The notes under the pieces were generated by a model, which searched no databases, was not told where the DNA came from, and saw nothing but the letters and a program-made list of their open reading frames with translations. The position numbers and the translations under genes were made by a program. Shown in pieces: positions 4,845-30,923 of a DNA stretch of 32,917 nt (position 1 is the first letter of the stretch; every line of letters begins with the position of its first letter). This DNA is from a virus, in the IMG/VR virus record IMGVR_UViG_3300031673_000293, positions 1 through 32,917 of that record; one strand, written 5' to 3'.

Positions 4845-5372
4845 CTATGCCGCTGGCGCGTCTTCAACGGTCTCGGGCGCGGGTTCTGGGACCGCCTGGA
4901 GTGGGTCACTGTTCGGCGGGGCTTCAGGAACGCCGGAGACCTCGTGCGCCCCCTCGGGTGCGTCGATGGCCGCGTTGATCACGACAGGGTTCATGCGGTA
5001 GCTGCCCTTGGCGAACTGCTCGAAGTAGCCCAGGTATCCCTTGAGCAGAATCGGCGGGATCGGCGACGAGCTGAAGATGCACGACTGGCGCAGGTCCATG
5101 AACGACTCAATCGGGAACAACGGCAGGAAGAGGACGTTCGATGGGGGCGCTTCCTGGACAGCAGCGGGGGCATAGATCCGCACGGCACTTTCACTCGCGC
5201 CCCCGATGAGACCGATGATCACGCCTCGCCCGAGCGTCGTGAAAAGGATGGGCGGGTACTGCGCAATCTCTTCCCACGTGGGGATCTTTTCCTGCTCAAC
5301 CTGTGCCGCCTTCTTCCTAGCTTGCGGCTGCTTTCGCTTCCCTTTGTTCTTCTTCGTCTTCCCTGAATTCAT
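4845..5372 (-). CDS. Hypothetical protein with basic N-terminus, overlapping the polymerase gene
   Basis: A 175-residue protein I do not recognise. The first 28 residues are very Lys/Arg-rich, the centre is hydrophobic and Pro-rich (residues 40-120), and the tail is acidic and Pro/Ala-rich. The ATG at 5372 has a GAGGA SD 8 bases upstream, and no alternative start codon lies closer. The gene therefore overlaps the 3' end of the polymerase gene by 56 bases in another frame. The basic N-terminus is encoded by the same bases as the acidic polymerase C-terminus. Expression is probably coupled to the polymerase. Function unknown. Confidence 0.7.
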   Translation of the reverse strand: MNSGKTKKNKGKRKQPQARKKAAQVEQEKIPTWEEIAQYPPILFTTLGRGVIIGLIGGASESAVRIYAPAAVQEAPPSNVLFLPLFPIESFMDLRQSCIFSSSPIPPILLKGYLGYFEQFAKGSYRMNPVVINAAIDAPEGAHEVSGVPEAPPNSDPLQAVPEPAPETVEDAPAA

Positions 5373-8280
5373 TGAGAGCTTCCTCGTCTAGCACTTGGAG
5401 CAGTGCTTCGTCAGCAGTGGGGGACTGCGGTTGATGGTCGGACAGATATTTTTCGAGCTTTACGTGTTCCCCATAACTCGGCCCGATTTCGATGTCACAT
5501 GCGAAGTCCACGGGGAGCCACGGAAACTTCTCCCTGACTCGTTGGACAGCGTAGTAGTTGATGAAATCCGGGAGCTGGCTAACGTACTTCTTCTTCACGT
5601 TGGCCACAACGGAGTCGTGGACTGTAAGGCATAGTCGCCCGCCAATTTCCGGTAGGTGTTCATGAAGTTCGCAGAGCTGCGAAATGAGGATGTCCGAAGA
5701 CGTCGACTGAATCTTCATGTTCTTGCCGCGGCGCTCTGCTTGCCCCCGGAAGAAGCCATTGACGTTCTGGAGGGGGAACCGGCGACGGCGCCCGAACAGG
5801 GTTTCGACGAAACCGAAGCGATGAATCTGCGCGACAGTATCGTTCATGTACTGGACGAGCGTGGGGAAGCGGTTGAACAGGTTGTCGATGACATCCTGTG
5901 CTTCTTGCATTGAAATGCCCGCGGTCTCGGCAATCTTCTTCGCCATGGCGCCGTAGAGCGTTCCGAAGACGACGCGCTTGACGGTCGTCCTCGTGGCGTC
6001 CATCTTCTTGTCGTGGTCCTTGAGTCTCTGGACCTCATCGTAGGGGATACCAAAAACCTCTTGAACGAAGAAGGAGTGAACATCGAGGCCGTCGTTGAGG
6101 GCTTTGATCAGTGCGGGGTCGGGAGCGTACGCGGTGAAGACCCGAATCTCCGCGCCCTTGTAGTCCATGTTGAGGATGAGGTCTTCCTCGGGGTCGTCGG
6201 GGATGAAGATCTTTTTGATGTTGTAGCCCGCCAACCATGCGGGCAGATTCTGCGTATTCAAGTCGGACGAGGACAGGCGCCCCGTCGACGTGCCATGGAT
6301 ATGGAAGTTCGTATGAAGGAATCCGTCGGCCTCCGACAACAGCTTGATGTCGTGGATGAACCCCGAGAGCGCCTTGTGCGCAGAACGGTAGTCCAAGAGG
6401 GCTTTGGTGAATAGACACCCGGTGTTCTCGACGATGGCGCGGAGCGTTGCCTTGTCCGTCTTGAACTGGCCGGACTTCGCGTTGCGCTCAGACCACGGAC
6501 CGGACCGCGGGGCATATACACCGAGCTTCCCCGTGTTGGGGTCGGGCGTGTCTGGTTCGTAGATACCTTTACTGAACAGGAGGTGGCCGACATTCGCCGT
6601 CGAGTTGGGATTGAACTCACCGTCCGCCGAGTCCCAATACCCTTGCAGGATGGCGGTCTTCTCCTTCACGACCCGCGTTAACTCGGTCTCGAGATAGTCG
6701 ACGTAGGGGCGGTCTACCCGCATCCCGTCGAACTCCATTTTACCGAGCGCCCTCGTGGCCGGGACGCAGTGGTTCGTCATCAGCGTTTTTGCATTACTCA
6801 AGAAATTGTCCTCCCGCATTCGGGTGAACTGGCTCTTGAGCAACATTCGCGTCAGATCGGTATCAATCGCGGCGTAGGGGAGCAGCGTGCTGAGCGGCAC
6901 GCGCTCGTATCCTGAGTCGTTGAGGCGCTTACGGCGGTCTTTCTTACGGCCAAAGAGATAGGTCTCAACTTGCTTCTTGGTCCAATCCGACGTCATGCCC
7001 GGATCAAACCCGGGGGTGCCCTTCTTAATTTTCCCCTTGCGAACGTTCTCGAGGGCGTTCTTGGCAGCGATCTCATCCACGGTTAGCGTCTCGGCTAGCT
7101 CGTGAACCTTGTCCGCGTAGTTCGAGAACTTCGGGAAATAGCTCCGGCCAAGAACCTTGAGGGAGTAGGACCCTGATTGGTCTTCGCGGAGGAGGTGCTC
7201 GCCAAGCATCGAGTCCCAGGCGTAATTGAACACCTTGACCTTGTGCCGCAGCTCAAGGAACTTCAGGTCGAACTTCGCGTTGTGGAAGACCTTCGGCTTC
7301 GCGCACTGGAGCACACGGGTGACGTGCCCCCACACCGCCGCCAACTCCTCCGGAGTCCAGGGAGACTCTGGGTGATCCAGCGCGATAGCTGTCGACAGCC
7401 CGGTGTCCCACGCGAACGAGACGCACAAAGCATGTGCGTCAGGTCTCTGTGGGTGCAGGGTATTCGTCTCGATGTCGACAGCCAGGGCGCACTTCGCTGC
7501 CGCGTCGGCGCCGGGAACAACGTACGCGATGATGTCGTCGCATAGCTTCCCCACTTCCTCGACTGTCGTGGCGTAGCGGTAGTTCTTGGTGACCTCCTCG
7601 ATGGAAGTGCTAGCCAGCGCATCGTCGACACCCGAAGCGAGGCGAAGCCCACGGATCACGTCGGTGTAAAACAGGCTGTAGAGACCCGTCTTAGCCATGA
7701 GGTGCTTCGTCGAGAAGGTCGGGATGACCACGACCTCGTGCCCCTCAATTTGCATTGTCAGCTGCTGTCCACGGACCTCTGTGAACTTCTTGGCCTGGAT
7801 GCCGAGAGACTTCAGTGCGGTCGCACCAAACGCCATGATGACTTTGGGGCGCTTGTGAAGAATGGCCGCACGGAGATAACACGAGCACCGGTCAATGACC
7901 GTCTTGGGGATGCGGACCGATGCCTCACGCCCCTCTTCAACCTGGCATTGGACCGCGTAGCAGTCCCACTTGCGCAGGTGGTTGAACCGCAGTTTTCCGC
8001 CGGTCTTCAGGTCCAACTCTTTGAGGGTCTTCCACGTCTTGCGAAGGATGCGTCCGCCGCGCCCATAGAAGACCTGCTGGTTGTTCACCGACCACGACGA
8101 GGGTGACTCGGCGACAAACATGATGTCGACTTCGCCGCGAGCACCTTCACCAATGGAGCGGGATTTCTTCACCAAGGGGCATTCCTTGCACATGATGCCC
8201 TTGGCCGCGTTGGACAAGTTGTCCGGCGCGATGGTCGCGTCGTCTACGGGGATGTCGGGTAGAACGATCTTCTTAGCCAT
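5317..8280 (-). CDS. Family A DNA polymerase with N-terminal uracil-DNA-glycosylase-like domain
   Basis: The replicative DNA polymerase, 987 residues in three parts. Residues about 28-215 resemble a family 4/5 uracil-DNA glycosylase: C31-x2-C34, an A-E-S-P loop (57-60), F-Y-G-R-G-G (71-76), further Cys at 107, 112, 132 and 134, and a degenerate final motif I-P-T-F-S instead of H-P-S. Residues 262-480 form a DEDDy proofreading exonuclease: D269, E271, D338, and Y469 with D473. Residues 500-945 are the family A polymerase: motif A with D706, motif B R764/K768/F772/Y776, motif C H888-D889. All catalytic residues of exonuclease and polymerase are present. The ATG at 8280 follows TAGGAG. Similar N-terminal glycosylase-like domains are known in SPO1-type phage polymerases. 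Confidence 0.93.
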   Translation of the reverse strand: MAKKIVLPDIPVDDATIAPDNLSNAAKGIMCKECPLVKKSRSIGEGARGEVDIMFVAESPSSWSVNNQQVFYGRGGRILRKTWKTLKELDLKTGGKLRFNHLRKWDCYAVQCQVEEGREASVRIPKTVIDRCSCYLRAAILHKRPKVIMAFGATALKSLGIQAKKFTEVRGQQLTMQIEGHEVVVIPTFSTKHLMAKTGLYSLFYTDVIRGLRLASGVDDALASTSIEEVTKNYRYATTVEEVGKLCDDIIAYVVPGADAAAKCALAVDIETNTLHPQRPDAHALCVSFAWDTGLSTAIALDHPESPWTPEELAAVWGHVTRVLQCAKPKVFHNAKFDLKFLELRHKVKVFNYAWDSMLGEHLLREDQSGSYSLKVLGRSYFPKFSNYADKVHELAETLTVDEIAAKNALENVRKGKIKKGTPGFDPGMTSDWTKKQVETYLFGRKKDRRKRLNDSGYERVPLSTLLPYAAIDTDLTRMLLKSQFTRMREDNFLSNAKTLMTNHCVPATRALGKMEFDGMRVDRPYVDYLETELTRVVKEKTAILQGYWDSADGEFNPNSTANVGHLLFSKGIYEPDTPDPNTGKLGVYAPRSGPWSERNAKSGQFKTDKATLRAIVENTGCLFTKALLDYRSAHKALSGFIHDIKLLSEADGFLHTNFHIHGTSTGRLSSSDLNTQNLPAWLAGYNIKKIFIPDDPEEDLILNMDYKGAEIRVFTAYAPDPALIKALNDGLDVHSFFVQEVFGIPYDEVQRLKDHDKKMDATRTTVKRVVFGTLYGAMAKKIAETAGISMQEAQDVIDNLFNRFPTLVQYMNDTVAQIHRFGFVETLFGRRRRFPLQNVNGFFRGQAERRGKNMKIQSTSSDILISQLCELHEHLPEIGGRLCLTVHDSVVANVKKKYVSQLPDFINYYAVQRVREKFPWLPVDFACDIEIGPSYGEHVKLEKYLSDHQPQSPTADEALLQVLDEEALNEFREDEEEQREAKAAAS

Positions 8281-13827: not shown

Positions 13828-13939
13828 TTCAAATTTCCTTATCGTTATGCGTTATTGCGACAACCAATCACCGAATAATTTCGATTGGTGGAGTCATCCT
13901 AGGCTGCTCGAAACCCGAGTGGCAAGCAGTTTCAGCACG

Positions 13940-13964
13940 TGAATCGACGTAAACTGTCGATTCA
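13940..13964. promoter_or_regulatory. Inverted repeat in the divergent SSB-like/sigma intergenic region
   Basis: The 246-base gap 13828-14073 separates the divergent SSB-like and sigma genes. It holds a perfect 9-base-pair inverted repeat, TGAATCGAC - 7 bases - GTCGATTCA, and a second imperfect one around CCAATC...GATTGG upstream. The first could be a DNA operator for either gene or an RNA hairpin in the sigma leader. A GTG at 13939 could extend the sigma frame upstream, but it sits at the edge of this repeat and lacks an SD. Confidence 0.4.
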
Positions 13965-14073
13965 TTCGAAACGCTCGAACCCCGCGAAATCTGGGCAGCA
14001 GAAAAGAGGCCGAGTAAACCGCGTAAAGAACTCTTCTTGCGGCCCCCCGGCGGTACTGTTACCGTCAAACTAC

Positions 14074-14862
14074 ATGGACACGAATGCCGCGCACAGCGCC
14101 GTGCTCTACTTCGGGGATATCGCCAAAACGGTACCCATCGTCGACAAGCGCAAGGAGCGCCGCCTGATTCGTCTTTGGCAGCAAAAGGAAGACTGCGTCG
14201 CGCGAAACACGCTGGTGCAGTCACATCTACGCTTCGTCGTGACACTGGCCCGGAAACGCTCCCGTGACCCCGACCGTCTCCCGGACCTTATCGCCGCCGG
14301 GAACATTGGCCTCATCAAGGCGGTCGATAAGTACGACCTCAAGCGGAAACCCGCGCCACGCTTTCTGACGTACGCTGGATGGTGGGTCCAAAAGGAAATC
14401 GCCGACGAGGATTACAGGACCTCCTCCGTCGTACACGTTCCCACTCACCGTCAAAAAGCGCAGCGCCGGCGCGCTAAGGAATACCAGAAAGCGATCCAAA
14501 CAGACGGACCCAATCACCCGAAGACCCGTAAGATGGTTCCCGAGGCCCCCGAAGGGCGCACCGTTGCCCTCGATGACCTGCGGGAATCTGCTGACGACGA
14601 TCCAAACAGTACACCAGCCGTCTACGATACCTTGCAGTCGAACCACCTACTACGACGGGTTATCGGGCAGCTCCCTTCGCGTGAACAGACAGTATTGAAC
14701 CTGTACTTTGGAACTAAGGACGACCCGCGAAACCTCGTGCAGATCGCAGCCATCCTTGGGATGTGCCCGGAACGAGTGCGCCAGATCAAGATCAGCGGTG
14801 TCCACCTGCTCCGGGACTTACTAGAGACGCGCGCTATTCAAACGTCACGCGACGTCTACTAG
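14074..14862 (+). CDS. Sigma-70-family RNA polymerase sigma factor
   Basis: A 262-residue sigma factor if started at ATG 14074. Region 2 spans about residues 46-112 and contains D-L-I-A-A-G-N-I-G-L (2.2, contacts the beta' clamp helices) and F-L-T-Y-A-G-W-W-V-Q-K-E-I (2.3-2.4, with the Trp pair used in -10 melting). Region 3 is shortened (113-170), and region 4.2 has a helix-turn-helix, I-A-A-I-L-G-M-C-P-E-R-V-R-Q-I-K. It lacks region 1.1 and resembles RpoH/RpoD-type phage sigmas. An in-frame GTG at 13939 would add 45 basic residues; neither start has a good SD. It is the only plus-strand gene within the early minus-strand blocks. It could serve the phage's own polymerase or the host's. Confidence 0.9.
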   Translation: MDTNAAHSAVLYFGDIAKTVPIVDKRKERRLIRLWQQKEDCVARNTLVQSHLRFVVTLARKRSRDPDRLPDLIAAGNIGLIKAVDKYDLKRKPAPRFLTYAGWWVQKEIADEDYRTSSVVHVPTHRQKAQRRRAKEYQKAIQTDGPNHPKTRKMVPEAPEGRTVALDDLRESADDDPNSTPAVYDTLQSNHLLRRVIGQLPSREQTVLNLYFGTKDDPRNLVQIAAILGMCPERVRQIKISGVHLLRDLLETRAIQTSRDVY

Positions 14863-14882: not shown

Positions 14883-15382
14883 TCTGCGGCATTTGTCATG
14901 CCGTCACTAACGGCGGCGTCAATATAGCCCTTGAGCCAGCGAAAGACCTCATCTTCCGTAACGCCAGGCTCCTTCAACTTCGAGACGATGAAGTCGGCCT
15001 CGAGGGTCGTGTGCGCAACCAGCTGGCCCTTCTTCAAAGCCACCAGCGTGATGTCGTCCGACATCAGATCAATGCGCATCATCGCTACAGGCTTCGCCCC
15101 CTTTTTGGCCAGGACCTGTACTGCCGTGAAGTCTAGGGCGTTGAAGGCCCAGACACCGGTGCCCTGGAGTGCCCCATAAACCCCGAACGGGTCAATAGGC
15201 GCCTGTCCGATCAAGGACAGCAAGACCTCGGTGTTCAACAAGGAGAGGCGGCCTAACCGCCGCAGGTTGTCAATCGTGGCGGGCGGCACGAGACCCTTGA
15301 TAGGGAGGACAAGGTCTACTTCGTCGACCTCGTCCGCAATCGCTACGTACGTCTCGAGGTCGACTTGCGCAGGGGTACTCAC
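14879..15382 (-). CDS. Hypothetical phage protein downstream of ParB
   Basis: A 167-residue protein if started at GTG 15382, which overlaps the ParB stop by four bases (GTGA), the usual coupling arrangement in this operon. An upstream ATG at 15418 would lie 36 bases further inside parB and is less likely. The sequence is alpha/beta-like with hydrophobic strands and no motif I recognise. It is the last gene of the nine-gene minus-strand chain and ends in the tandem repeat. Function unknown. Confidence 0.65.
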   Translation of the reverse strand: MSTPAQVDLETYVAIADEVDEVDLVLPIKGLVPPATIDNLRRLGRLSLLNTEVLLSLIGQAPIDPFGVYGALQGTGVWAFNALDFTAVQVLAKKGAKPVAMMRIDLMSDDITLVALKKGQLVAHTTLEADFIVSKLKEPGVTEDEVFRWLKGYIDAAVSDGMTNAAD

Positions 15383-16386
15383 AGCTTCGCTCGTACGCCC
15401 ATGTGGAACTCGGAGCACTTGATCTGGATCCGGGTCACTACCTTGGTCTCGTCGCTTGTTTGAGGGTTCTCCAAACGTGCGATCAAGATGCCGTACTGCT
15501 CGAGCGCGGCACTTACCGGGCGCATCTTGATCTCGACGTCGCCGAGGACCTCCTTGGCCGCTGCGATCTTGTCCTTGTCGTACTCGACAGCGTCCTTCGA
15601 CCCCTTGCGCGACCGTGTCTTCTTGATACCGAGGTCCGCCTTGTGTTTGTCGGCCTCCTCTTTGATGTCCAGAACCGTGACCTTTTCTCCCTTGTCCATC
15701 TTGTCGGTGACGGATTGGAGAATCTCCTTCTGCGTGGAAACAGGGAGCGTGGACATCTCCCGGACGTGCGTCGCAGTGATAGTCCCTGCCGCTACCGCCG
15801 CTTGAATCTCCGGTGCCGCGCGTAGGAGCGCTAGGTGCTGGGACACGTACGGCTCACTCATGCCCATGCTCTTCGCTACTTGAGCCTGAGACATGCCGCC
15901 CAGCTCCATGAGCTTCGCGATACCCCGGGCGACCTCAAGAGGTTCGAGGTCGGCGCGCTGCAGATTCTCAAGGAGGTTGACCAACGCGCTGTCGAGTGCA
16001 TTGCACTTCTTCAGCTTAACCTCGACCTGCTTGAACTTATTGCTGTTCGCACGGATCAGGTTAATAGCCCAGTAGCGCCGCTCCCCTGCGATGAGAAAGT
16101 AGCGCCTCTTCTTGGAGGTCTTCGACGGACCGCCTTCACGTACAACAATCGGCTGAATTAGCCCGTGTTGCTCGATCGAGGAGGACAGCTGCTTCAGGCT
16201 GTCCAGCATCTTCATCTCGTGGTCGGTGAGCACCTTCTTCAGCGCTGCGGGCGCCTTGAGGACAGACTCCTCTCCCTCAGCCGTAACGAACGCCTTTTTA
16301 GCGAACTCACGGAAACTCTCGCGAGAATTGAAGTCATCGCCGATAACGATGTCGGCGTAGGGAACCATTTGTCGGATCTCACTCAT
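15379..16386 (-). CDS. ParB/Noc-like CTPase-fold DNA-binding protein
   Basis: A 335-residue ParB-family protein. It shows the N-terminal ParB fold with Q-H-G-L-I-Q-P-I-V-V (box I) and L-I-A-G-E-R-R-Y-W-A (box II, G-E-R-R, the nucleotide-binding motif). The N-L-L-E-N-L-Q-R-A-D-L segment follows, then a helix-turn-helix (S-Q-A-Q-V-A-K-S-M-G-M-S-E-P-Y-V-S). ATG 16386 is chosen because AGAGGT precedes it and it overlaps the upstream stop (ATGAGTGA); an in-frame upstream extension is less likely. No ParA is visible, so plasmid-like partition is unproven. Lone phage ParB-like proteins may instead act in DNA condensation or regulation. A 16-base palindrome 350 bases upstream is a candidate site. Confidence 0.87.
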   Translation of the reverse strand: MSEIRQMVPYADIVIGDDFNSRESFREFAKKAFVTAEGEESVLKAPAALKKVLTDHEMKMLDSLKQLSSSIEQHGLIQPIVVREGGPSKTSKKRRYFLIAGERRYWAINLIRANSNKFKQVEVKLKKCNALDSALVNLLENLQRADLEPLEVARGIAKLMELGGMSQAQVAKSMGMSEPYVSQHLALLRAAPEIQAAVAAGTITATHVREMSTLPVSTQKEILQSVTDKMDKGEKVTVLDIKEEADKHKADLGIKKTRSRKGSKDAVEYDKDKIAAAKEVLGDVEIKMRPVSAALEQYGILIARLENPQTSDETKVVTRIQIKCSEFHMGVRAKL

Positions 16387-16723
16387 CGGGGACCTCTGCG
16401 TCCTCCACCAGCAGTTCATGGAGAATATCTAACTTTGTCCGGAGCTTCTCCGCGCCGGCGGTATCGGGGGTTTCGTGAAGCTGCCGCTTCAGCTCCTTGA
16501 TGCGGCGTCGTAGTCGAGGAGAATTATCGACGACCACCGACAGATCGTTGTCGGCGTGGCGAACAATGGCGTCTAGGGCGTCCACTACGCCAGCAGTTGC
16601 GGCCTTTCCTGGCGCTACCACTGGTAACAGTTTCGAGAGGACCTCTGCCGCGGTCAAGATACGTTTTCGCGTCACGAATCTTCGGCGACGGTAGAGAACC
16701 TTCTCGATTACATTTCGACCCAA
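16379..16723 (-). CDS. Small basic hypothetical protein with TTG start
   Basis: A 114-residue protein with an Arg-rich N-terminus (about residues 12-20) and a Glu/Leu-rich helical C-terminus that may form a coiled coil (about residues 70-105). The TTG start at 16723 directly follows the upstream stop and has a strong SD, AGGAGG, 5 bases before it. It overlaps the ParB start by 8 bases. I do not recognise the family. Co-translation with ParB suggests a functional link. Confidence 0.65.
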   Translation of the reverse strand: MGRNVIEKVLYRRRRFVTRKRILTAAEVLSKLLPVVAPGKAATAGVVDALDAIVRHADNDLSVVVDNSPRLRRRIKELKRQLHETPDTAGAEKLRTKLDILHELLVEDAEVPDE

Positions 16724-20959: not shown

Positions 20960-22735
20960 ATGGCGAACCCAGCTGCTGACCCCACCATCTCAGACATGTT
21001 GTCCCCGACCAGCTCCCATGGGTCGCCGCTGTTCGACTTCCTGACAGCCTTCGCCCCCCGGAAACTGAAGGACCTGTTCCGTCTCTGTGAGTACCTGTAC
21101 TTCAACTGCTCGCAGATCTACGCGGCGTTGCAAAAGTTCTGCACCTACCCCATCACGGATATCCTCTACGACACAACCAACGAATCGTTGAAGGAGAAGT
21201 GGAAGAAGCTCCACGAGAAGACGCTGAAGACCAAGCGACGCCTCTACCAGGCCGCCGTCGACAAATTCGTCTACGGCAACTTCTTCGCCTCGCTCTACAC
21301 CCCCTTCATTCGTTTCTTGAAGTGCCCCAAGTGCGAGCACCTCACCAATATCACGGCGGTCGACTACAAATACGAACCAAAGAAACTCGTCTTCAAGTAC
21401 GACTGCCCGCACTGCGCCGGCGCGGTGAGCGGCACGATCGTTGACAAACGCCTGACCCGCGCCGACAAGGTCGCCATCATCAGGTGGGATCCGAAGCTGA
21501 TCGACATCGACTACAACCCGATTACCGACCATAGTGAGTACTACTGGACCATCCCGAAGGAGATCAAGGAGCGGGTCACCAACGGCAGCAAGCATCTCAT
21601 CAACACGCTACCGGTCGAGTTCCTTAAAGCCATACAAGGCGACAAGATCTTCAAGTTCGCTGAGGGACAAATCTTCCACATGAAGATGGACGCCCCCGCT
21701 GGCATTGAGGCCCAATGGGGCTTTCCGCCGCTAGCATCGACCATCAAGCTCTTCTTCTACGCCGCTGTACTGCGTAAAGCCAATGAGGCCATCGCACTCG
21801 ACTACGTCGTCCCGTTCCGTATCATCTCCCCCAAGCAGGCCTCCTCCGACGGAGACCCCGTCCAGCGCATCTCTCTCAATCGCTGGGCCGGAGAGATGAA
21901 AACGAACATCAAGCGTTGGCGCCGCGACCCGCTCCACATCATGTGGAGCCCCATCCCCGCTGAGATCACCCACCTCGGTGGCCAGGCCCGCGCCCTCATG
22001 ACCCTCGGCGAGGTCCAGGCAGCGGAGGACAACATCATCGCAGCCCTCGGGCTGCCCAAGGAGTTCATCTACGGCGGCTTCAGCGCTATGGGCTCTGGCA
22101 TCCAGCTCCGTGTCCTCGAGAACCAGCTCCTTCACCAAACGGGTGACCTTAACGACCTGCTCCAGTGGCTCACTGATAAAATGGCCAAGATGCTCGGCTG
22201 GGCCTCCGTCGAGACGGAGCTGGCGCCGTTCAAGTTTATCGACGACGTCCAACAAAAGACGCTGCTCATTCAGCTCAACTCGGCGGACCCCGAGGGGCCG
22301 TGGATCTCAAAGACCACTATTGGCGAAGCCTTCGACATCGACCCGGCAGAAGAACGCCAGAAACGTGTTCAGGAACAGCTGGACGAGGTGCGCTCCCAGC
22401 AAAAACTGCAGGTCGAGATACAGAGCCTGCAGAACACCTTGGCCGCGCAGGTACAGTCACAGCAAGCCGTAGGACAGCAGGGGCTCCAATACGACCAACA
22501 GCGCGTTATCGGCCAGGCCGACATGCTGGTGCAAGAGTTCATGGGCCTCGACCCCGGCATGCGTCGGTCACAGATGCATGCTTTGCAGATGGAGGATTAC
22601 GTCATGTACTCCGTCGTGAAGTCGCGCCTAGAAGACGAGCAGACAGCTATGCACTACGAAGCCGTCACACAAGCACGTGACGCCAATGGAATGAATAACG
22701 GCGGCGGCGACGGCGGAATGCCCCCCGCTCAATAG
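20960..22735 (+). CDS. Portal protein with internal zinc ribbon
   Basis: A 591-residue portal-type protein forming the ring at the capsid vertex for DNA entry and tail joining. Supporting features are its length, a mixed alpha/beta N-terminal half, a long helical region around residues 330-420 with G-L-P-K-E-F-I-Y-G-G (typical portal segment), and a Gln-rich C-terminal coiled coil (455-530). An inserted Cys4 zinc ribbon is clear, with C122, C125, C149 and C152. ATG 20960 has a weak SD (AGGCGG). It starts the large plus-strand virion block, far from terminase (16 kb away), which is unusual because these genes usually lie close together. No prohead protease is visible next to it. Confidence 0.82.
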   Translation: MANPAADPTISDMLSPTSSHGSPLFDFLTAFAPRKLKDLFRLCEYLYFNCSQIYAALQKFCTYPITDILYDTTNESLKEKWKKLHEKTLKTKRRLYQAAVDKFVYGNFFASLYTPFIRFLKCPKCEHLTNITAVDYKYEPKKLVFKYDCPHCAGAVSGTIVDKRLTRADKVAIIRWDPKLIDIDYNPITDHSEYYWTIPKEIKERVTNGSKHLINTLPVEFLKAIQGDKIFKFAEGQIFHMKMDAPAGIEAQWGFPPLASTIKLFFYAAVLRKANEAIALDYVVPFRIISPKQASSDGDPVQRISLNRWAGEMKTNIKRWRRDPLHIMWSPIPAEITHLGGQARALMTLGEVQAAEDNIIAALGLPKEFIYGGFSAMGSGIQLRVLENQLLHQTGDLNDLLQWLTDKMAKMLGWASVETELAPFKFIDDVQQKTLLIQLNSADPEGPWISKTTIGEAFDIDPAEERQKRVQEQLDEVRSQQKLQVEIQSLQNTLAAQVQSQQAVGQQGLQYDQQRVIGQADMLVQEFMGLDPGMRRSQMHALQMEDYVMYSVVKSRLEDEQTAMHYEAVTQARDANGMNNGGGDGGMPPAQ

Positions 22736-23234: not shown

Positions 23235-26200
23235 ATGCCCAAAGACAAAGACCTGTCGCCTGTCCTTATAGACTCGCTCACACGACGACAAAACATCCGA
23301 CGAAAAACGCTCGAGGGGCTATCGGAGTCCTTTCCACTCCAAACCAAGAACTATTCTGTCGCCATCAACAACCCGCGTGTTGAGGAAAAAGAATACTCGT
23401 CGCGACAGCAAAAAGATGCGCTACTCGCCGGTAAGACGCTATCCGAGCGTGTGCGGGGTGACATCGTTGTCAAAGACGCGCAGGGAAAAGTCGTTAACGA
23501 GGCACGGGACTTCACGCTGCTGCAGCTCCCGTACTTCACCCCGCGGCACACTTTTATCGTCGATGGTACTGAGTACAGCGTCTCGAACCAGATCCGAACG
23601 AAGCCTGGGGTCTATACCCGTCGCCGCGGCAACGACGAACTCGAGGCTACCTTCAACCTTTCAAAAGGATCCAACTTCCGCGTTCTCATGGACCCGGCCA
23701 AAGGATACCTCTATACACAGCCCACGAGCAGTGCTTCCCGCACCCCCCTGTACCCCGTCCTACGGGCTCTCGGTATCCCTCATCAGGATATTGCAAAAAA
23801 CTGGGGGGCAACAATCGCTGAGACAAACCGCGCGGCATTCAAGGACCCCGATCGATATGTGGAGAAATTCTACAAGAGCTTCATCCACCCCGCGCAACAG
23901 GTGCACAAGACACATGATGACCGTGTAAAAGCGGTACATGACTACCTCGACAGAACGCAAATGTCCCCCGAGGTTACTAAGCGCACCCTCGGCACCGCCC
24001 ATGACAGGGCCTCACCTCTCGCGATTTTGTCCGCGTCGGCAAAGCTGCTCGACGTCCACCGCCAGGCGGAAGACACTGACGACCGCGATTCCCTCGAGTT
24101 CAAGACCTTCCACTCCGTCGATGACTTCATCAAAGAGCGCCTCCATCTCGACGCCCGCGGTCTCAAAGGAAAGCTCGGCTTGAAACTCGATTCTCACAAG
24201 GGTGATATACGAAAAGCGTTACCTTCTGCTCCTTTCACCCGTGCTGTACACTCATTCCTTGCGAAGTCCTCGCTCGCATCTGTTCCAATGCAAATCAACC
24301 CGATGGAGCTAATGGACTCCGCCGTCCGGGTCACGTCGCTAGGTGAAGGCGCAATCTCTTCCGACCGCGCGATCCCACTCGAGGCTCGTAAGCTACACGC
24401 AACGCACTTCGCCGTGATGGACCCTGCCCGTACTCCAGAGAGCTTCAAAGGCGGTATAGACATCCGCGCGGCAATGACCACGCGTCGCGACGACGCTGGC
24501 AATCTCTACGCGATGCTCCGTGACGTCAAAACCGGACGTCGGGTCCCCCTCAAAGCAGCAGACGTTGCAAACGCGGTTGTCGCCTTTCCTGACGAAAAGC
24601 TCGGGAAAGGGCGTGTCGTGGACGTCATGCGAAACGGAAAGATCGAACGTATTGGCGCCGCGCACGTTACCCACCAAGTCGACCACGCCTCGGACCTATA
24701 CGGGCCAACCACGAACCTGCTCCCACTCATCGGCGGTATGCAGGGAAACCGTGTCCTCATGGGCGCGAAACAGCAGGCCCAGGCCCTTTCCCTCGTAAAT
24801 CGTGAAGCGCCTCTGGTGCAGGTCAGCTCCTGGAATCCACGCCAGTCGATGGAGCAACACATGGTCTCTCTGATCGTCCCGACGGCGCCTGTCGCGGGAA
24901 CCATCGAAAAAATTGACCAGGACTACATCTACCTGCGCCCAACGCAAACAAAGCGAGGCGCCGCCAACTGGGACGTCAAACCCCTCGAGACTGATGCGCA
25001 CAAAGCGCTCGGCAAAGCGCTCGAAGGGCAAACTTGGGGTGGTGTTGACAACCCGAGAGACACGGACCGTATGTTTGGTGTTTTCTCTGATGGGCAACTC
25101 GCGGGAGTCACGCGAGTGAACCCCGGTGACCCCCTGGGCGATTGGAAAGGCCCTGGAGGGCCACCCGAGTCACTTCAAAAACTGGACCCCGACGCTTGGA
25201 TCAACTCAACAGTCGTTGACCCAAAGTACCGTCGCCAAGGAATTGCCCGTGCCCTGCGAGAACGCGTTCAACAGGAATACGACTCGATCCTCTCCAGCGT
25301 AGGGCCCGAATCAAACGCGGCTGCGATGCAGCACCTGAATGAGGAGCAAGGGTTCACGCCCGTGCGAGAACGAAGAGGCCGCACACAGTACCATTGGAAA
25401 CGCCCCGAGAATGAAGTGCCTCCGTTCTTCAAGCGCGGCTCCTACGAAGAAGACGACGAGTTCTACTCAGACTTCCTCAAGCTCGCGGGCGATGACGGAC
25501 TCCTTCGCCTTCACTACGACCAGAACTTCCCCCTCGCCGCCAAGTCATACCTCCACAACAACCTCACGGTGAACGCCGGTGACAAGGTTCGCGCTGGCCA
25601 GCACCTCGCCGACTCGAACTACACGAAGAACGACACGCTCGCGCTAGGGACGAATCTGAGCGTTGCCTACATGCCGTACCGCGGGCTCAATTCAAACGAC
25701 GGTCTCGTCATCTCGGAGGGGGCAGCCAACCGCATGACGTCGGAGCACATGTACAAGTACGTCATGCAGCTCGACGGTGACCTCACGCCCGGCAGGGATA
25801 AACACAAAGCGTATTTCGGTAGCCTGTATTCCGCCGTCCAATACGGACAGCTAGATGACTCTGGCGTCGTAAAAAAGGGCACCACGGTACAGCCCCACGA
25901 CCCCCTGATCGTCGCCGTGCGTGAGACAAAAGCCACTGGAAACGCCGTTCTCCTGGGCCGCCTTTCTAAGTCCCTCGTACGTCCATACGTCGAGGAGACT
26001 GAAGTCTGGGACCATGATCGGCCTGGCCTCGTCATGGACGTTGTCAAAACCGCCCGGCGCATTACGGTTACAGTCAAGACCGAGGAGCGTCTTGGAATTG
26101 GCGACAAGCTCAGCGGTCGCTATGGCAACAAAGGCGTCATCGCTAAGATCATTCCAGATCACCTCATGATACACGGGGAAAACAGGAAGCCCATCGACCT

Positions 26201-28130
26201 CATCTTCACGTCCGCCGGTATTGTATCTCGCATCAATCCTGCGCAAATCGTTGAAGCAGCCCTCGGCAAAGTCGCGGACAAGACCGGCAAACCAATGGTC
26301 CTTGACCAGTTCCACCCGAGTGACAACGTGGAATTCGCCAAAAGGCAGCTCAAAAAGCACGGCCTCCACGACAAAGAGGTGGTATTCGACCCCGAGACGG
26401 GGAAAAAGATCCCCGGTGTGTTCGTCGGAAAGAGCTACATCCTCAAGCTGTTCAAGACGACGGATTCCAACTGGGCCGCGCACGGGGCAGAACGCTACGA
26501 CTTTAATCAGCAACCTGCACGAGGCGGTGCGGACGGCGCCAAGGCCCTCGGCAAGATGGAATTCGATGGCTTAGTCGCGCATAACGCGCGCAACGTTCTG
26601 CGGGAAGCGGCATCTATCAAGGGACAGAGGAACGACGAATTCTGGCGATCAGTTCAACTCGGCCTCCCCACGCCTGCACCTCAGACCTCTTTCACGTACA
26701 ACAAATTCCTCACCGCGCTTCAGGGCGCTGGCGTCAAGGTCGACAAGCAGGGAAATCGCCTTGCCCTCGGCCCCCTGACCGACCATGACATTTCAAAAAT
26801 GTCCGCGGGAAAACTGCGTTCCCCGCAGAAATTGCTCCGAGCGAAGGACCTCAAGCCTGAAAACGGTGGTTTGTTTGACCCCGTGGTCACGGGGGGAACG
26901 GACGGTACGAAGTGGTCCCACGTCGACCTGCACGAACCCATTGTAAATCCGGTCTTCGTCGAACCTGTTCGACGTTTGCTCGGTATGACGAAGAAGGAGT
27001 TCCTGGAGCAGCACGGGCAACACGGGGGGGACTACTTCAAGCGAGAACTGAAGAAGATCGACGTCGACAGCAAGCTCAACGCGCTACACACGAGTACAGA
27101 AACTCTCCGGGGGGCCTCTCTCGACGATGCCGTTAAGCAGATCAAATACCTTAACGCCCTCAAGGCACAGAACCTGAAACCACAGGACGCTTATGTGCTG
27201 TCCAAAATCCCTGTAACGCCGCCAATCATCCGTCCTGTGCTCCCTCTCAAAGACGGGCGCCTCCAGGTGGGGGACGCGAACCTGCTCTACCGTGACGCGT
27301 TCCTCGCCAACAAGCAGCTTGGGGAAGTGAAGGGCGTGCTCCCGGCGGATGAGTTGAAGCATCCGCGCAACCACCTCTTCGAAGCAATCGGTGCGGTCTT
27401 CGGCACCCACGCCCCCGTAAGCCCTACGACCAGTAAACGCGGCGCGAAGGGCTACCTCAATCTCATCGCAGGAACGCGCCCGGGAAGCGGCTTCTTTCAG
27501 TCCAAGCTAATGAAGCGACAACAGGATGTCTCCGGGCGTGCGACTATCGCCCCCGATCCAACCCTCAATATGGACGAAGTTGGTGTTCCTGAGGACATGC
27601 TCTGGGGGATGTACGGGAAATTCGTCATCGGGCGCCTAGTGAAAAAAGGCTACTCTGCCACCGACGCGCAGAAGATGGTCGAGGAAAAACGACCCCTGGC
27701 ACGGAACGAACTGCTTACGGAGGCACAGGAACGCCCCGTCATGATCAATCGAGCACCGTCGCTACACCGCTTCAACATCGTCGGTGCCTTCCCGAAAATC
27801 GTGGAAGGGAAAACCATCCGGCTAAACCCCTTCGCTGAAAAGGGCATGAGCGCTGATTACGATGGTGATGCAATCCAGGTCCACGCTCCAGTTACCCCTG
27901 GGGGTATCGCCGACGTCAAAAATATGACCTTGTCGAACCTCATCTTCAGCGACAAGCAACCCGGACAGCTCAACATCGCACCCCAACATGAAGCCGTCTT
28001 AGGGCTGTACAAAGCCACCGCTCCCGGCAAACGAGGGAAAGCAAAGCACTTTGCTTCGAAGCAAGAGGCTCTCGCTGCCTACCACCGCGGAGAGATTTCG
28101 TTGCAAGACAATGTTGAGATTGGTCGGTAG
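23235..28130 (+). CDS. rpoBC: RNA polymerase beta + beta' N-terminal fusion with embedded GNAT domain
   Basis: A 1631-residue multisubunit-type RNA polymerase chain. Beta part: protrusion/lobe strand F-I-V-D-G-T-E-Y-S-V (106-115), N-L-L-P-L-I with R-V-L-M-G-A-K-Q-Q-A (494-515), L-A-L-G-T-N-L-S-V-A-Y-M-P-Y (802-815), G-D-K-L-S-G-R-Y-G-N-K-G (956-967, the conserved double lysines), and K-M-E-F-D-G-L (1107-1113). A GNAT acetyltransferase interrupts it at about 596-725. Beta' part: K-P-E-N-G-G-L-F-D (1207-1215), clamp helices (about 1263-1317), P-I-I-R-P-V-L-P-L-K-D-G (1330-1341), D-V-S-G-R (1431-1435), and catalytic S-A-D-Y-D-G-D (1539-1545) with D1541/D1543/D1545. It stops where beta' would continue into the gene at 29133. 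The first beta' zinc ribbon is missing. RBS AGAGGG precedes the ATG. No alpha or omega subunit is visible. Confidence 0.93.
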   Translation: MPKDKDLSPVLIDSLTRRQNIRRKTLEGLSESFPLQTKNYSVAINNPRVEEKEYSSRQQKDALLAGKTLSERVRGDIVVKDAQGKVVNEARDFTLLQLPYFTPRHTFIVDGTEYSVSNQIRTKPGVYTRRRGNDELEATFNLSKGSNFRVLMDPAKGYLYTQPTSSASRTPLYPVLRALGIPHQDIAKNWGATIAETNRAAFKDPDRYVEKFYKSFIHPAQQVHKTHDDRVKAVHDYLDRTQMSPEVTKRTLGTAHDRASPLAILSASAKLLDVHRQAEDTDDRDSLEFKTFHSVDDFIKERLHLDARGLKGKLGLKLDSHKGDIRKALPSAPFTRAVHSFLAKSSLASVPMQINPMELMDSAVRVTSLGEGAISSDRAIPLEARKLHATHFAVMDPARTPESFKGGIDIRAAMTTRRDDAGNLYAMLRDVKTGRRVPLKAADVANAVVAFPDEKLGKGRVVDVMRNGKIERIGAAHVTHQVDHASDLYGPTTNLLPLIGGMQGNRVLMGAKQQAQALSLVNREAPLVQVSSWNPRQSMEQHMVSLIVPTAPVAGTIEKIDQDYIYLRPTQTKRGAANWDVKPLETDAHKALGKALEGQTWGGVDNPRDTDRMFGVFSDGQLAGVTRVNPGDPLGDWKGPGGPPESLQKLDPDAWINSTVVDPKYRRQGIARALRERVQQEYDSILSSVGPESNAAAMQHLNEEQGFTPVRERRGRTQYHWKRPENEVPPFFKRGSYEEDDEFYSDFLKLAGDDGLLRLHYDQNFPLAAKSYLHNNLTVNAGDKVRAGQHLADSNYTKNDTLALGTNLSVAYMPYRGLNSNDGLVISEGAANRMTSEHMYKYVMQLDGDLTPGRDKHKAYFGSLYSAVQYGQLDDSGVVKKGTTVQPHDPLIVAVRETKATGNAVLLGRLSKSLVRPYVEETEVWDHDRPGLVMDVVKTARRITVTVKTEERLGIGDKLSGRYGNKGVIAKIIPDHLMIHGENRKPIDLIFTSAGIVSRINPAQIVEAALGKVADKTGKPMVLDQFHPSDNVEFAKRQLKKHGLHDKEVVFDPETGKKIPGVFVGKSYILKLFKTTDSNWAAHGAERYDFNQQPARGGADGAKALGKMEFDGLVAHNARNVLREAASIKGQRNDEFWRSVQLGLPTPAPQTSFTYNKFLTALQGAGVKVDKQGNRLALGPLTDHDISKMSAGKLRSPQKLLRAKDLKPENGGLFDPVVTGGTDGTKWSHVDLHEPIVNPVFVEPVRRLLGMTKKEFLEQHGQHGGDYFKRELKKIDVDSKLNALHTSTETLRGASLDDAVKQIKYLNALKAQNLKPQDAYVLSKIPVTPPIIRPVLPLKDGRLQVGDANLLYRDAFLANKQLGEVKGVLPADELKHPRNHLFEAIGAVFGTHAPVSPTTSKRGAKGYLNLIAGTRPGSGFFQSKLMKRQQDVSGRATIAPDPTLNMDEVGVPEDMLWGMYGKFVIGRLVKKGYSATDAQKMVEEKRPLARNELLTEAQERPVMINRAPSLHRFNIVGAFPKIVEGKTIRLNPFAEKGMSADYDGDAIQVHAPVTPGGIADVKNMTLSNLIFSDKQPGQLNIAPQHEAVLGLYKATAPGKRGKAKHFASKQEALAAYHRGEISLQDNVEIGR
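25020..25409 (+). other. GNAT acetyltransferase domain inserted in RNA polymerase beta
   Basis: Residues about 596-725 of the fusion protein. A strand G-V-F-S-D-G-Q-L-A-G-V (615-625) leads to W-I-N-S-T-V-V-D-P-K-Y-R-R-Q-G-I-A-R-A-L (655-674). This has the acetyl-CoA pyrophosphate loop R666-x2-G669-x-A671 of GNAT motif A. Motif B-like N-A-A-A-M-Q-H-L-N-E-E-Q-G-F (694-707) follows. The flanks are ordinary beta sequence: the strand I-Y-L-R-P-T before it, and N-F-P-L-A-A-K-S-Y after it. The reading frame is continuous, so this is an internal insertion, not a separate gene. Confidence 0.87.
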
Positions 28131-28147
28131 ATCTCCGCGACTTCGCC

Positions 28148-28153
28148 TATAAT
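28148..28153 (+). promoter_or_regulatory. Consensus TATAAT element before the 28163 gene
   Basis: A perfect TATAAT lies in CGCCTATAATTC, 9 bases before the ATG at 28163, in the short gap after the RNA polymerase gene. A start point 7 bases downstream would leave an almost leaderless message, matching the absence of an SD. It shares GCCTAYAAT with the element before the portal gene. Confidence 0.45.
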
Positions 28154-28162
28154 TCGACCAAC

Positions 28163-28756
28163 ATGCCGATGAAAAGCAAAGCGCAGCGCCGCTGGATGTG
28201 GGCCAACGAACCTGATATGGCCGCCCGCTGGGAAAAAGAGACCCCAAACGGCAAGCGCCTTCCTGAGAAGGTCAAGCATGCCTACATCAAAGGTGCCGCG
28301 GATGCCCTCGACATCTATGGGCTCAAAACTGCGGCGAAGGAATGTCGCCGCAAGATCCCACAGAAGCCAAGCAACGGAAAGTTCCACGGCGCTAAGGCAG
28401 CCTTTCGTACGGAGGCGAGCAAGAATGCCGAACTCGAGCCCCCTATGCCTCCACTTCCCGCTGACGAGGTCCCCGGCGGTATCCTTCCTGAGGTGCCTCC
28501 GATGGAGGAACCTCCCGCTGAGGGCCTTCCCATCGAGGGGGAAGAGCCACAGGAGGGGGCGGGAGACTTGCCCATCGACAAGCTCACCAACATCCTCCAA
28601 GCACTTCCGGACCCTGTACCGGCCCCGGACGACGCCCGCCAGGACCCGCTCAACCGCGCCACGCATTGGGGCGCCCCCTCCGACCTATCCGGGGGGGACG
28701 CGGGCGGTCGTGTGGATAACCTTGGACAGAACACTGGAATTGGGACGGCCTTCTAA
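28163..28756 (+). CDS. Small phage protein with KSKAQRRxxWAN motif and Pro-rich region
   Basis: A 197-residue protein. It starts with K-S-K-A-Q-R-R-W-M-W-A-N and then A-A-R-W-E-K-E-T-P, a short motif I know from many phage structural or assembly proteins of unknown function. Residues 38-56 repeat the A-Y-x-x-G-x-x-x-A-L motif shared with neighbouring small proteins. The middle (93-165) is Pro/Glu-rich and probably disordered. No SD precedes the ATG; the TATAAT 9 bases upstream may make it leaderless. Its stop overlaps the next start (TAATG). It lies between the two halves of beta', so it could be a virion protein associated with the polymerase. Confidence 0.75.
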   Translation: MPMKSKAQRRWMWANEPDMAARWEKETPNGKRLPEKVKHAYIKGAADALDIYGLKTAAKECRRKIPQKPSNGKFHGAKAAFRTEASKNAELEPPMPPLPADEVPGGILPEVPPMEEPPAEGLPIEGEEPQEGAGDLPIDKLTNILQALPDPVPAPDDARQDPLNRATHWGAPSDLSGGDAGGRVDNLGQNTGIGTAF

Positions 28757-29124
28757 TGCTCAAAGACGCATACGACCAAGGTTACGCCGCAGCCCTCGAG
28801 AAGTTCGCCGTCGAAGGCCCCGTACGCTCCTCCGCGCTCGATCAGCGCGCCCCCGGTTCACACGGGACTTCCAACCCCGAGAAGCGGTTCGGTCGAGGAC
28901 TCGTCAGCGGCCAGAAACGACACCTGAGTAACCTGGGGAAAAGCGTCGGGCGCATCCTAGACCCTTCCACGGGACCAATGTCACGGAAGAACCTTAAAGG
29001 GCTCGCCTGGAGTTCCGCCAAAGGCCTCGCACCATCAATGGCCATCGGCGCAGCGGGTCTCTGGGGGGCCAAGAAACTCCTCGGCGGGTCCAAGAAGCAG
29101 CAACCCACCCAGCAGTTCGGCTAA
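28756..29124 (+). CDS. Small basic protein with the AYxxG N-terminal motif
   Basis: A 122-residue protein beginning M-L-K-D-A-Y-D-Q-G-Y-A-A-A-L-E-K-F-A, the clearest copy of the shared N-terminal motif. The middle is basic with Arg/Lys, and the C-terminal part has a Gly/Ala-rich hydrophobic stretch (about residues 91-108) that could be a membrane or core-packing helix. Start overlaps the previous stop by one base (TAATG). Function unknown; likely virion-associated. Confidence 0.7.
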   Translation: MLKDAYDQGYAAALEKFAVEGPVRSSALDQRAPGSHGTSNPEKRFGRGLVSGQKRHLSNLGKSVGRILDPSTGPMSRKNLKGLAWSSAKGLAPSMAIGAAGLWGAKKLLGGSKKQQPTQQFG

Positions 29125-29132
29125 ACTGACAC

Positions 29133-30923
29133 GTGCCCACTTTCGGTCAATACCTCGTTGACGACGCACTCCCGGAGAAGTACCGGGGGCGCGGCACGTT
29201 GACGAGTAAAAATATGCACAACGTCCTCACGGACATTGCCAAGAACGACCCTGACCAGTACGCGGCTGCAGTCACAGGCTTGAAGCGCGTCGGAGACGAA
29301 ATTTCTACACTAGAAGGGATCTCCGTCGGCCTCGACGACATCACCAGTGAGCCGAAGCGAAATGCGCTCATGAAGATGCACGCGACAAAGTACCACCGCG
29401 CCACTGGGGATGCGAAAGAGAGAGCCCTCCTCACAGCGCAAAACGCGGTCCTAGACTACACAAAGACGCACCCGGGCGAGATGGGGCGCATGGTAACGTC
29501 AGGTGGTCGCGGGGCTCACGGGCAGCTCATGAAAATCATCGGAGGCCCCGTTCTAGCGCGCGATAGTAATGATGTGATAATCCCCTGGTTCATCAGCAAA
29601 AACTACGCGGAGGGGCTCAAAGCCTCCGATGCATGGGTCGCCGGCGACGAAGCACGCATGAACGTTGTCAAGTCCAACCTCGCACCAGCAGACGCGGGAG
29701 ACTTCGCCAAAATCCTCGTCAACAATATGGGCGACAAGCTCATCACGATGCCCGACTGTGGCACCAAGAACGGCATCGCGCTGAAGGCTAGCGACCCCTC
29801 TATCATTGACAGATATCTCGCTTCAACACACGGGCAGTACCCTGCAGGGACCCTCATCACCCCTGCGATTGCGCAAAAGCTCTCAAAAAACACGACGGTT
29901 ATCGTCCGCTCTCCTATGACCTGTCAGGCCCCGAGCGGCCTTTGCCAGAAGTGCCAGGGGCTATCTACCAACGGCAAACACCACACAGTGGGCACAAATG
30001 TCGGTATGCGTGCCGCTCAGGCACTCGCAGAACCTTTGACACAATTCGCGCTCGACGCCCGGCACGGGGGGCGGGTCAACACAGAGGAAAAGAAACAACT
30101 GCGAGGTGTCCAAGGCGTCCGCCAAATGCTCGAGATACCCCGCTCTTTCCTGCACCACGCAGTCCTCGCTAGCAAGGATGGTGCGGTCGAGCGCATTGAA
30201 AAAGCGCCCCAAGGCGGTCACTACATTTACGTTAGTGGTGTGAAGCTTTACTCGAGTCCCGACCTGCGCATAACTGCACGCGCCGGAGACAAAGTAGAAG
30301 CGGGTGACGCGCTAACCGATGGCATCCCGAAGCCAGACGAGGTCGTACGTCTCAAAGGACTGGGGCAAGGACGCGAGCACCTGGTAGACATGCTCCACGG
30401 CATCTATCAACGTGAAACAGGCGGGGTCGACCGCCGCCACCTGGAGACATTGGCACGGTCGGTCATGAACCATGTCCTAATCACCGACACGGGGGACAAC
30501 ACTGACCACGGTTTCGTCAGGGGCGACGTCATCGACTACAACCGTTTCCATGCTGCGCTCGAGTCGCATCGCAAAAAAGTCCCGACCGATGCCGCAGTTG
30601 GCGAAACGCTCGCAGAGAACGTCTTACACTTTACGGCGGGAACTCGTGTGACTCCATCGATGCGTGATACGCTGAGAGCACGCAACATTCGCGCCGTGAA
30701 CATCTCCACGACCGCCCCGCGTGTTGAGCCGGTCGTTCGTGCAGCGTCACGTACCCCCCTCCTCAATCCTGACTGGATGGCACGCCTTGCGCATCGTTAC
30801 CTCAAAGAATCCCTCATCACGGGAGCACATCGAGGCGACGTGAGTGACCTACGTGGAATGAATCCTATCCCCGCCTACGCGGCAGGGGTCACCTTTGGTC
30901 AAGGTGAAGGAGGACGGTACTAA
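29133..30923 (+). CDS. rpoC: RNA polymerase beta' C-terminal part (bridge helix, trigger loop)
   Basis: A 596-residue protein continuing beta' where the fusion ends. It begins with P-T-F-G-Q-Y-L-V-D-D-A-L-P (as T-T-V-G-R-A-L-L in beta'). The bridge-helix region has V-T-S-G-G-R-G-A-H-G-Q-L (121-132). The second beta' zinc site is complete with C209 (D-C-G-T), C264, C271 and C274, at the bacterial spacing. The trigger loop is T-Q-F-A-L-D-A-R-H-G-G (303-313); the catalytic His (H311) is kept but the Arg two turns before it is Asp (D308). A C-terminal segment A-G-D-K-V-E-A-G-D-A-L-T-D (395-407) matches bacterial beta'. GTG 29133 is the first possible start after an in-frame stop and has no clear SD, so it is probably coupled to the previous gene. 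The jaw is small. Confidence 0.92.
   Translation: MPTFGQYLVDDALPEKYRGRGTLTSKNMHNVLTDIAKNDPDQYAAAVTGLKRVGDEISTLEGISVGLDDITSEPKRNALMKMHATKYHRATGDAKERALLTAQNAVLDYTKTHPGEMGRMVTSGGRGAHGQLMKIIGGPVLARDSNDVIIPWFISKNYAEGLKASDAWVAGDEARMNVVKSNLAPADAGDFAKILVNNMGDKLITMPDCGTKNGIALKASDPSIIDRYLASTHGQYPAGTLITPAIAQKLSKNTTVIVRSPMTCQAPSGLCQKCQGLSTNGKHHTVGTNVGMRAAQALAEPLTQFALDARHGGRVNTEEKKQLRGVQGVRQMLEIPRSFLHHAVLASKDGAVERIEKAPQGGHYIYVSGVKLYSSPDLRITARAGDKVEAGDALTDGIPKPDEVVRLKGLGQGREHLVDMLHGIYQRETGGVDRRHLETLARSVMNHVLITDTGDNTDHGFVRGDVIDYNRFHAALESHRKKVPTDAAVGETLAENVLHFTAGTRVTPSMRDTLRARNIRAVNISTTAPRVEPVVRAASRTPLLNPDWMARLAHRYLKESLITGAHRGDVSDLRGMNPIPAYAAGVTFGQGEGGRY

Follow-up and report, generated by a model that had tools for sequence, protein, structure and literature searches.

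In Helicobacter and Wolbachia, rpoB and rpoC are fused and the β′ part of the RNA polymerase (RNAP) is whole. A divided β′ is known from cyanobacterial and phiKZ-like polymerases, which carry the same β′ parts on separate chains and part them at nearly the same site (PMC7598289). The closest described relatives of the locus analyzed here, and the cultured members of its family, are Salmonella phage Arash (gp206 and gp216) and Vibrio phages D69, D148, and D181, which likewise combine a fusion of β with the N-terminal part of β′ (β-β′N), a separate C-terminal part (β′C), and a neighboring portal gene. They differ from our locus in sequence (28-35% identity) and in lacking its GNAT insert; their proteins are annotated as β and β′ or as hypothetical, and we came across no reference to the fusion in the Arash paper (PMC10585845).

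The window, meaning the whole stretch of DNA that was analyzed, comprises the 32,917 nt of IMG/VR record IMGVR_UViG_3300031673_000293. The features relevant to its RNAP are as follows.

13939..14862, plus strand: σ70-type factor gene (PF04542 and PF04545), 28% identical to Arash gp196 (E 3e-21)
20960..22735, plus strand: portal gene, upstream of the RNAP genes, 29% identical to the Arash portal (E 7e-98)
23235..28130, plus strand: fused β-β′N gene, 1631 aa (P1), with Pfam Rpb2_2/3/6 and Rpb1_1/2 and PDB matches to β and β′
23235..26744, plus strand: β portion, P1 residues 1-1170, of which 1101-1170 align with E. coli β 1266-1338
24975..25424, plus strand: GNAT acetyltransferase insert in β, P1 about 581-730 (PF00583, E 3.5e-7 for the segment alone)
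26100..26135, plus strand: β motif GDKLSGRYGNKG with the active-site lysines, aligned with E. coli GDKMAGRHGNKG
26745..26789, plus strand: β to β′ junction of 15 residues, from P1 1170 (E. coli β 1338) to P1 1186 (E. coli β′ 30)
26790..28127, plus strand: β′N portion, P1 1186-1631, of which 1261-1628 correspond to E. coli β′ 178-549 (PDB search)
27849..27869, plus strand: catalytic SADYDGD, with D287, D289, and D291 invariant in alignment A2
28163..28756, plus strand: small gene between the RNAP halves, 197 aa, without Pfam match, weak match to phrog_1375
28756..29124, plus strand: second small gene between the halves, 122 aa, without Pfam match, its start overlapping the stop codon of the preceding gene
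29133..30923, plus strand: separate β′C gene, 596 aa (P2), GTG start, PF04998 (Rpb1_5)
29622..29729, plus strand: bridge helix region in β′C, by alignment with E. coli β′
29757..29954, plus strand: second zinc site, Cys 209, 264, 271, and 274 of β′C, 4/4 invariant among 19 sequences
30039..30065, plus strand: trigger loop TQFALDARH in β′C, by alignments, with His 311 invariant

An initial annotation made from the sequence alone had read the first RNAP gene as β plus β′ to just past SADYDGD, fused at the natural rpoB-rpoC junction, and had placed the bridge helix and trigger loop in another gene behind two genes unrelated to polymerase. This reading held throughout: Pfam and PDB mapping carry P1 to E. 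coli β′ 549, alignments locate the bridge helix and trigger loop at 29133-30923, and neither intervening gene (28163 and 28756) has a Pfam match. At the junction, β is complete to its last residues (P1 1101-1170 versus E. coli β 1266-1338, score 54; shuffle mean 25.9, sd 4.3) and is followed by a 15-residue spacer and by β′ starting near residue 30, although the latter start is only tentative because the alignment there is short and its score of 44 (shuffle mean 26.1, sd 4.3) falls below the best of 300 shuffles (54). The first zinc ribbon of β′ is absent from P1 when aligned with E. coli β′. Region HMMs, with coordinates adjusted because the stop-to-stop frame begins further upstream, place the break in β′ between E. 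coli residues 550 and 573, and residues 119-314 of P2 match E. coli β′ 724-939 in a search of solved structures.

Related loci carry homologs of the 28163-28756 gene close to their RNAP genes, and the sole homolog of the 28756-29124 gene found in these loci is in L003. An A-Y-x-x-G-x-x-x-A motif lies near the N-terminus of five neighboring small proteins (window 28163, 28756, 30923, 31504, and 31797), compared with a mean of 0.19 and at most 4 in 2000 trials with shuffled sequences; perhaps it plays a role in virion targeting. Elsewhere in the window, a DNA polymerase A gene (5317-8280) begins with a uracil-DNA glycosylase-like domain (PF03167, E 2.8e-8), and a ParB-like protein is encoded at 15379-16419 (PF17762 and PF02195).

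Together the two proteins have the hallmarks of a two-barrel multisubunit DNA-dependent RNAP, namely the DxDxD motif, the paired basic residues of the β barrel, the bridge helix, and the trigger-loop histidine, with SADYDGD and GDKLSGRYGNKG in the fused chain and the bridge helix, second zinc site, and trigger loop in β′C. The trigger-loop positions of E. coli M932 and R933 are altered in the split members and the histidine is invariant. A σ70 region 2 was detected in 22/25 relatives and region 4 in 14/21. The α dimer, the assembly platform of cellular RNAP, has no counterpart among the 25 relatives: none matched PF01000, a profile that was positive in 13 of 14 control genomes, and host α could still be used. 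The order portal, small gene, β-β′N is common to the window and Arash, their portals are homologous, and portal homologs are present in 73 loci.

IMG/VR was scanned with the β′C protein as query, giving 38 loci, and with an alignment as query, giving 171 relatives that were reduced to 80; L034 and Arash β′C as queries yielded few additional relatives. β-β′N followed by a separate β′C is found in 85 records, the window included, and in one further record that is incomplete at its start, so that 86/87 informative records, with Arash and Vibrio phage D69 among them, have the fusion and the separate β′C, in a sample conditioned on β′C because the loci were found through it. The remaining record, L034, has all β-β′ parts in a single 2036-aa ORF, and separate β and β′ genes occur in none of the 87. 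Some census records are near-duplicates, and the untruncated fused proteins amount to 71 unique sequences. An Acinetobacter phage MD-2021a record (CAKLQH020000005, L092) was considered as an unfused relative and rejected, its rplK-rpoB-rpoC region being bacterial; the record is therefore host chromosome, at least there. The β-β′N/β′C arrangement is thus a conserved trait of a large tailed-phage family. Its presence in 86 of the 87 records also excludes a sequencing error or frameshift at 28130-29133, one of two circumstances that the initial annotation had named as fatal to its reading; the other, a second β′C copy, was not seen in 24 split relatives, each of which has one, the window itself being a 32.9-kb fragment. 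Both RNAP genes are under strong purifying selection, with dN/dS between the window and L003 of 0.048 for the fused gene and 0.075 for β′C at a dS of ∼1.6, close to saturation. Family-wide conservation, the presence of the enzyme in the particles of a relative, the σ gene, the GNAT insert, and the loss of the first zinc ribbon are observations beyond those of the initial annotation.

The fused protein carries insertions of more than one kind. A linker at E. coli β about 729-761 is 5-43 residues long in most members and holds 134-269 residues in 10 of the 71 unique proteins. The insert is a GNAT domain in the window (PF00583, E 3.5e-7) and L077 (PF13508, E 5.7e-10) and a pyrophosphatase-like InPase domain (PF18823) in L015, L044, L045, L047, L081, and L090, with a weak match in L086; that of L004 yielded no domain identification. 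The L047 insert has ∼100 residues besides InPase that look ParB-like by eye and have no Pfam match. The two GNAT domains look independent, because the insert is missing from L003, the closest relative of the window, and L077 sits on a distant branch. An intein was considered for the window GNAT insert and rejected, as it has no intein motifs and its site differs from those of the intein-like inserts. The latter number 25, are 144-543 aa long, and occupy three conserved sites (near L003 residues 402, 812, and 1398, of which 1398 lies at the catalytic motif), most with Cys first and Asn last, as in inteins; they are carried by L007, L008, L010, L018, L019, L022-L024, L039, L043, L044, L046, L048, L049, L054, L062-L064, L066, L080, L084, and L090. 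In Vibrio phage D181 (L204:2604-2884), the fused RNAP gene is interrupted by a group I intron (RF00028, E 9.8e-26) with a homing endonuclease gene behind it; the D69 fused gene is uninterrupted.

Polyvalent proteins, for which delivery by the virion has been proposed, are known to include GNAT and InPase domains (PMC5512222), and a phiKMV-type GNAT modifies host RNAP (PMC7824862). Such domains are present here within the fused chain itself and may be delivered with it. Judging from sequence, we tentatively suggest, as a possibility rather than an expectation, that a virion polymerase acts as a cargo carrier, and that enzymes independently acquired at the β linker enter the host with it. If so, the cargo domains might, for example, acetylate host RNA polymerase or remove pyrophosphate.

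We consider it likely that the two genes specify one working two-chain multisubunit RNAP core, σ-directed and virion-packed, that arose by one fusion and then one break; the altered M932 and R933 equivalents and the fact that L034 is a single record count against this reading. A tree of the concatenated regions (FastTree, 61 taxa, mReC sequences not among them), an analysis the initial annotation had proposed, recovers the bacteria as monophyletic and the phage family apart from them, with L034 sister to all split members (0.99), the split clade at 1.0, and YerA41 and Carin-5 outside. The most economical interpretation of the position of the fully fused L034 is a single fusion with a single later break in β′. 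The order proposed in the initial annotation fits the tree, although re-fusion in L034 would undo it. A break in β′ after the catalytic domain is supported; gene insertion as its cause is unproven: the intervening genes differ among lineages and the gap varies. If the split state were ancestral and L034 re-fused, the enzyme would work alike and only the order of events would be wrong. We think this unlikely, if deserving of serious attention: L034 is represented by a single record with a long branch, and YerA41, which branches next to the family, also has a separated β′, but in the tree L034 branches outside the whole split clade (support 0.99 and 1.0), and it retains a bacterial-like trigger loop (TQLTMKTFH), and Carin-5, which groups with YerA41, has an unsplit β′. 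A merely apparent split, with the halves joined at the RNA or protein level by an intron or intein, is scarcely credible. The 25 intein-like inserts among the 71 unique fused proteins and the group I intron of one member speak for it, yet they lie at other sites; Rfam has no intron match in the window, on which ground an intron joining the halves was rejected, β′C begins with a start codon of its own, aligned members end their fused proteins at homologous sites, and the two halves are separated by different genes in different lineages and by 500-5716 bp, never zero.

The remaining alternative concerns where the enzyme acts. The Arash paper (PMC10585845) reports virion proteomics in which gp206, the fused subunit, has the highest count (3516 spectra), with 1210 for gp216 (β′C), 1148 for the helicase gp217, 467 for the σ factor gp10, and 1333 for the major capsid protein; the window σ matches gp196, and in the part of the virion table consulted, gp10 is listed and gp196 is not. 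These counts could also come from a non-virion polymerase, synthesized once infection is under way to transcribe middle or late genes, if its presence in particles were carry-over. The Arash authors themselves allow carry-over of abundant proteins, 116 proteins were detected in the particles with replication enzymes among them, and only one core per genome was found, as against separate virion and non-virion enzymes in phiKZ-like phages. Even so, gp206 spectra exceed those of the major capsid protein, and the gp206 gene lies close behind the portal gene, as its counterpart does in the window; we judge a purely non-virion enzyme improbable. On the strength of the Arash proteomics, the enzyme is most likely a σ-using, α-less virion RNA polymerase. 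The window's phage would by analogy pack its RNAP in the virion as Arash does, an extrapolation because the Arash proteins are only about 35% (β-β′N) and 28% (β′C) identical to those of the window.

In the two-chain virion core that we favor, the β-β′N chain would contribute the two double-psi barrels together with the catalytic aspartates and the basic residues, and β′C, which carries the bridge helix and trigger loop as well as the second zinc site, would dock onto it in the manner of cyanobacterial RpoC2 on RpoC1. The covalent β-β′ link probably takes over part of the assembly role of α, because α is not encoded, and promoter choice would probably fall to phage-encoded σ factors. By analogy with Arash, the core would be packed in the virion, enter the cell with the DNA, and start phage transcription. 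The layout itself would have its origin in a single β-β′ fusion and then a single β′ break after the double-psi barrel (DPBB) domain. For the window's phage, we infer assembly, injection, σ use, and virion location.

Such an enzyme adds a layout for the catalytic core of transcription, with β and half of β′ on one chain and the moving parts of the active site on another. The family is widespread and has cultured members, seemingly without α and with σ, unlike the phiKZ-like enzymes; it offers a test case for whether covalent linkage replaces α in assembly and a route to a reconstitutable two-protein core plus σ. The cargo site, if functional, ties virion polymerases to injected effector domains.

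Among known systems, the mReC lineage (Weinheimer and Aylward 2020, PMC7481178) is alike in being a phage multisubunit RNAP clade apart from bacteria, drawn from IMG/VR. Its β and β′ subunits are described, and fusion is mentioned for crAssphage only; the window's SADYDGD would fail the selection filter (NADxDGD), while L003 and others have NADYDGD. Compared by description only, the mReC lineage is probably related to or overlapping with the present family; a query taken from the lake series of one published mReC sample failed to recover that sample. Polyvalent phage proteins (Iyer et al. 2017, PMC5512222) similarly join GNAT and InPase to a virion-type protein, and the available part of that report lists N4-type virion RNAPs, with no two-barrel RNAP carrier found in it. 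The phiKZ-like virion and non-virion polymerases resemble the window in a β′ broken after the DPBB, the existence of a virion form, and the lack of α; however, they also have a split β, two enzymes per phage, and no σ (PMC7598289 and PMC7824862), whereas the window family has an intact β, one β′C per genome, and σ. RpoC1 and RpoC2 of cyanobacteria and plastids split β′ in the same 20-70 residue stretch, but cyanobacterial β is separate and RpoC1 extends ∼70 residues past the window's break. Because cyanobacteria and phiKZ-like phages share this near-identical split, a two-chain active site is not in itself unusual, contrary to the initial annotation. The Helicobacter and Wolbachia fusions likewise join the β C-terminus to the β′ N-terminus, and L034 is their phage counterpart. 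No description of the β-β′N plus β′C architecture was found in the literature covered, which left out most subscription journals and all preprints. The β′ split site is thus already known from cyanobacteria and phiKZ-like phages; to our knowledge, what is new is the β-β′N fusion with a separate β′C, together with a hot spot in β that receives acetyltransferase or pyrophosphatase domains.
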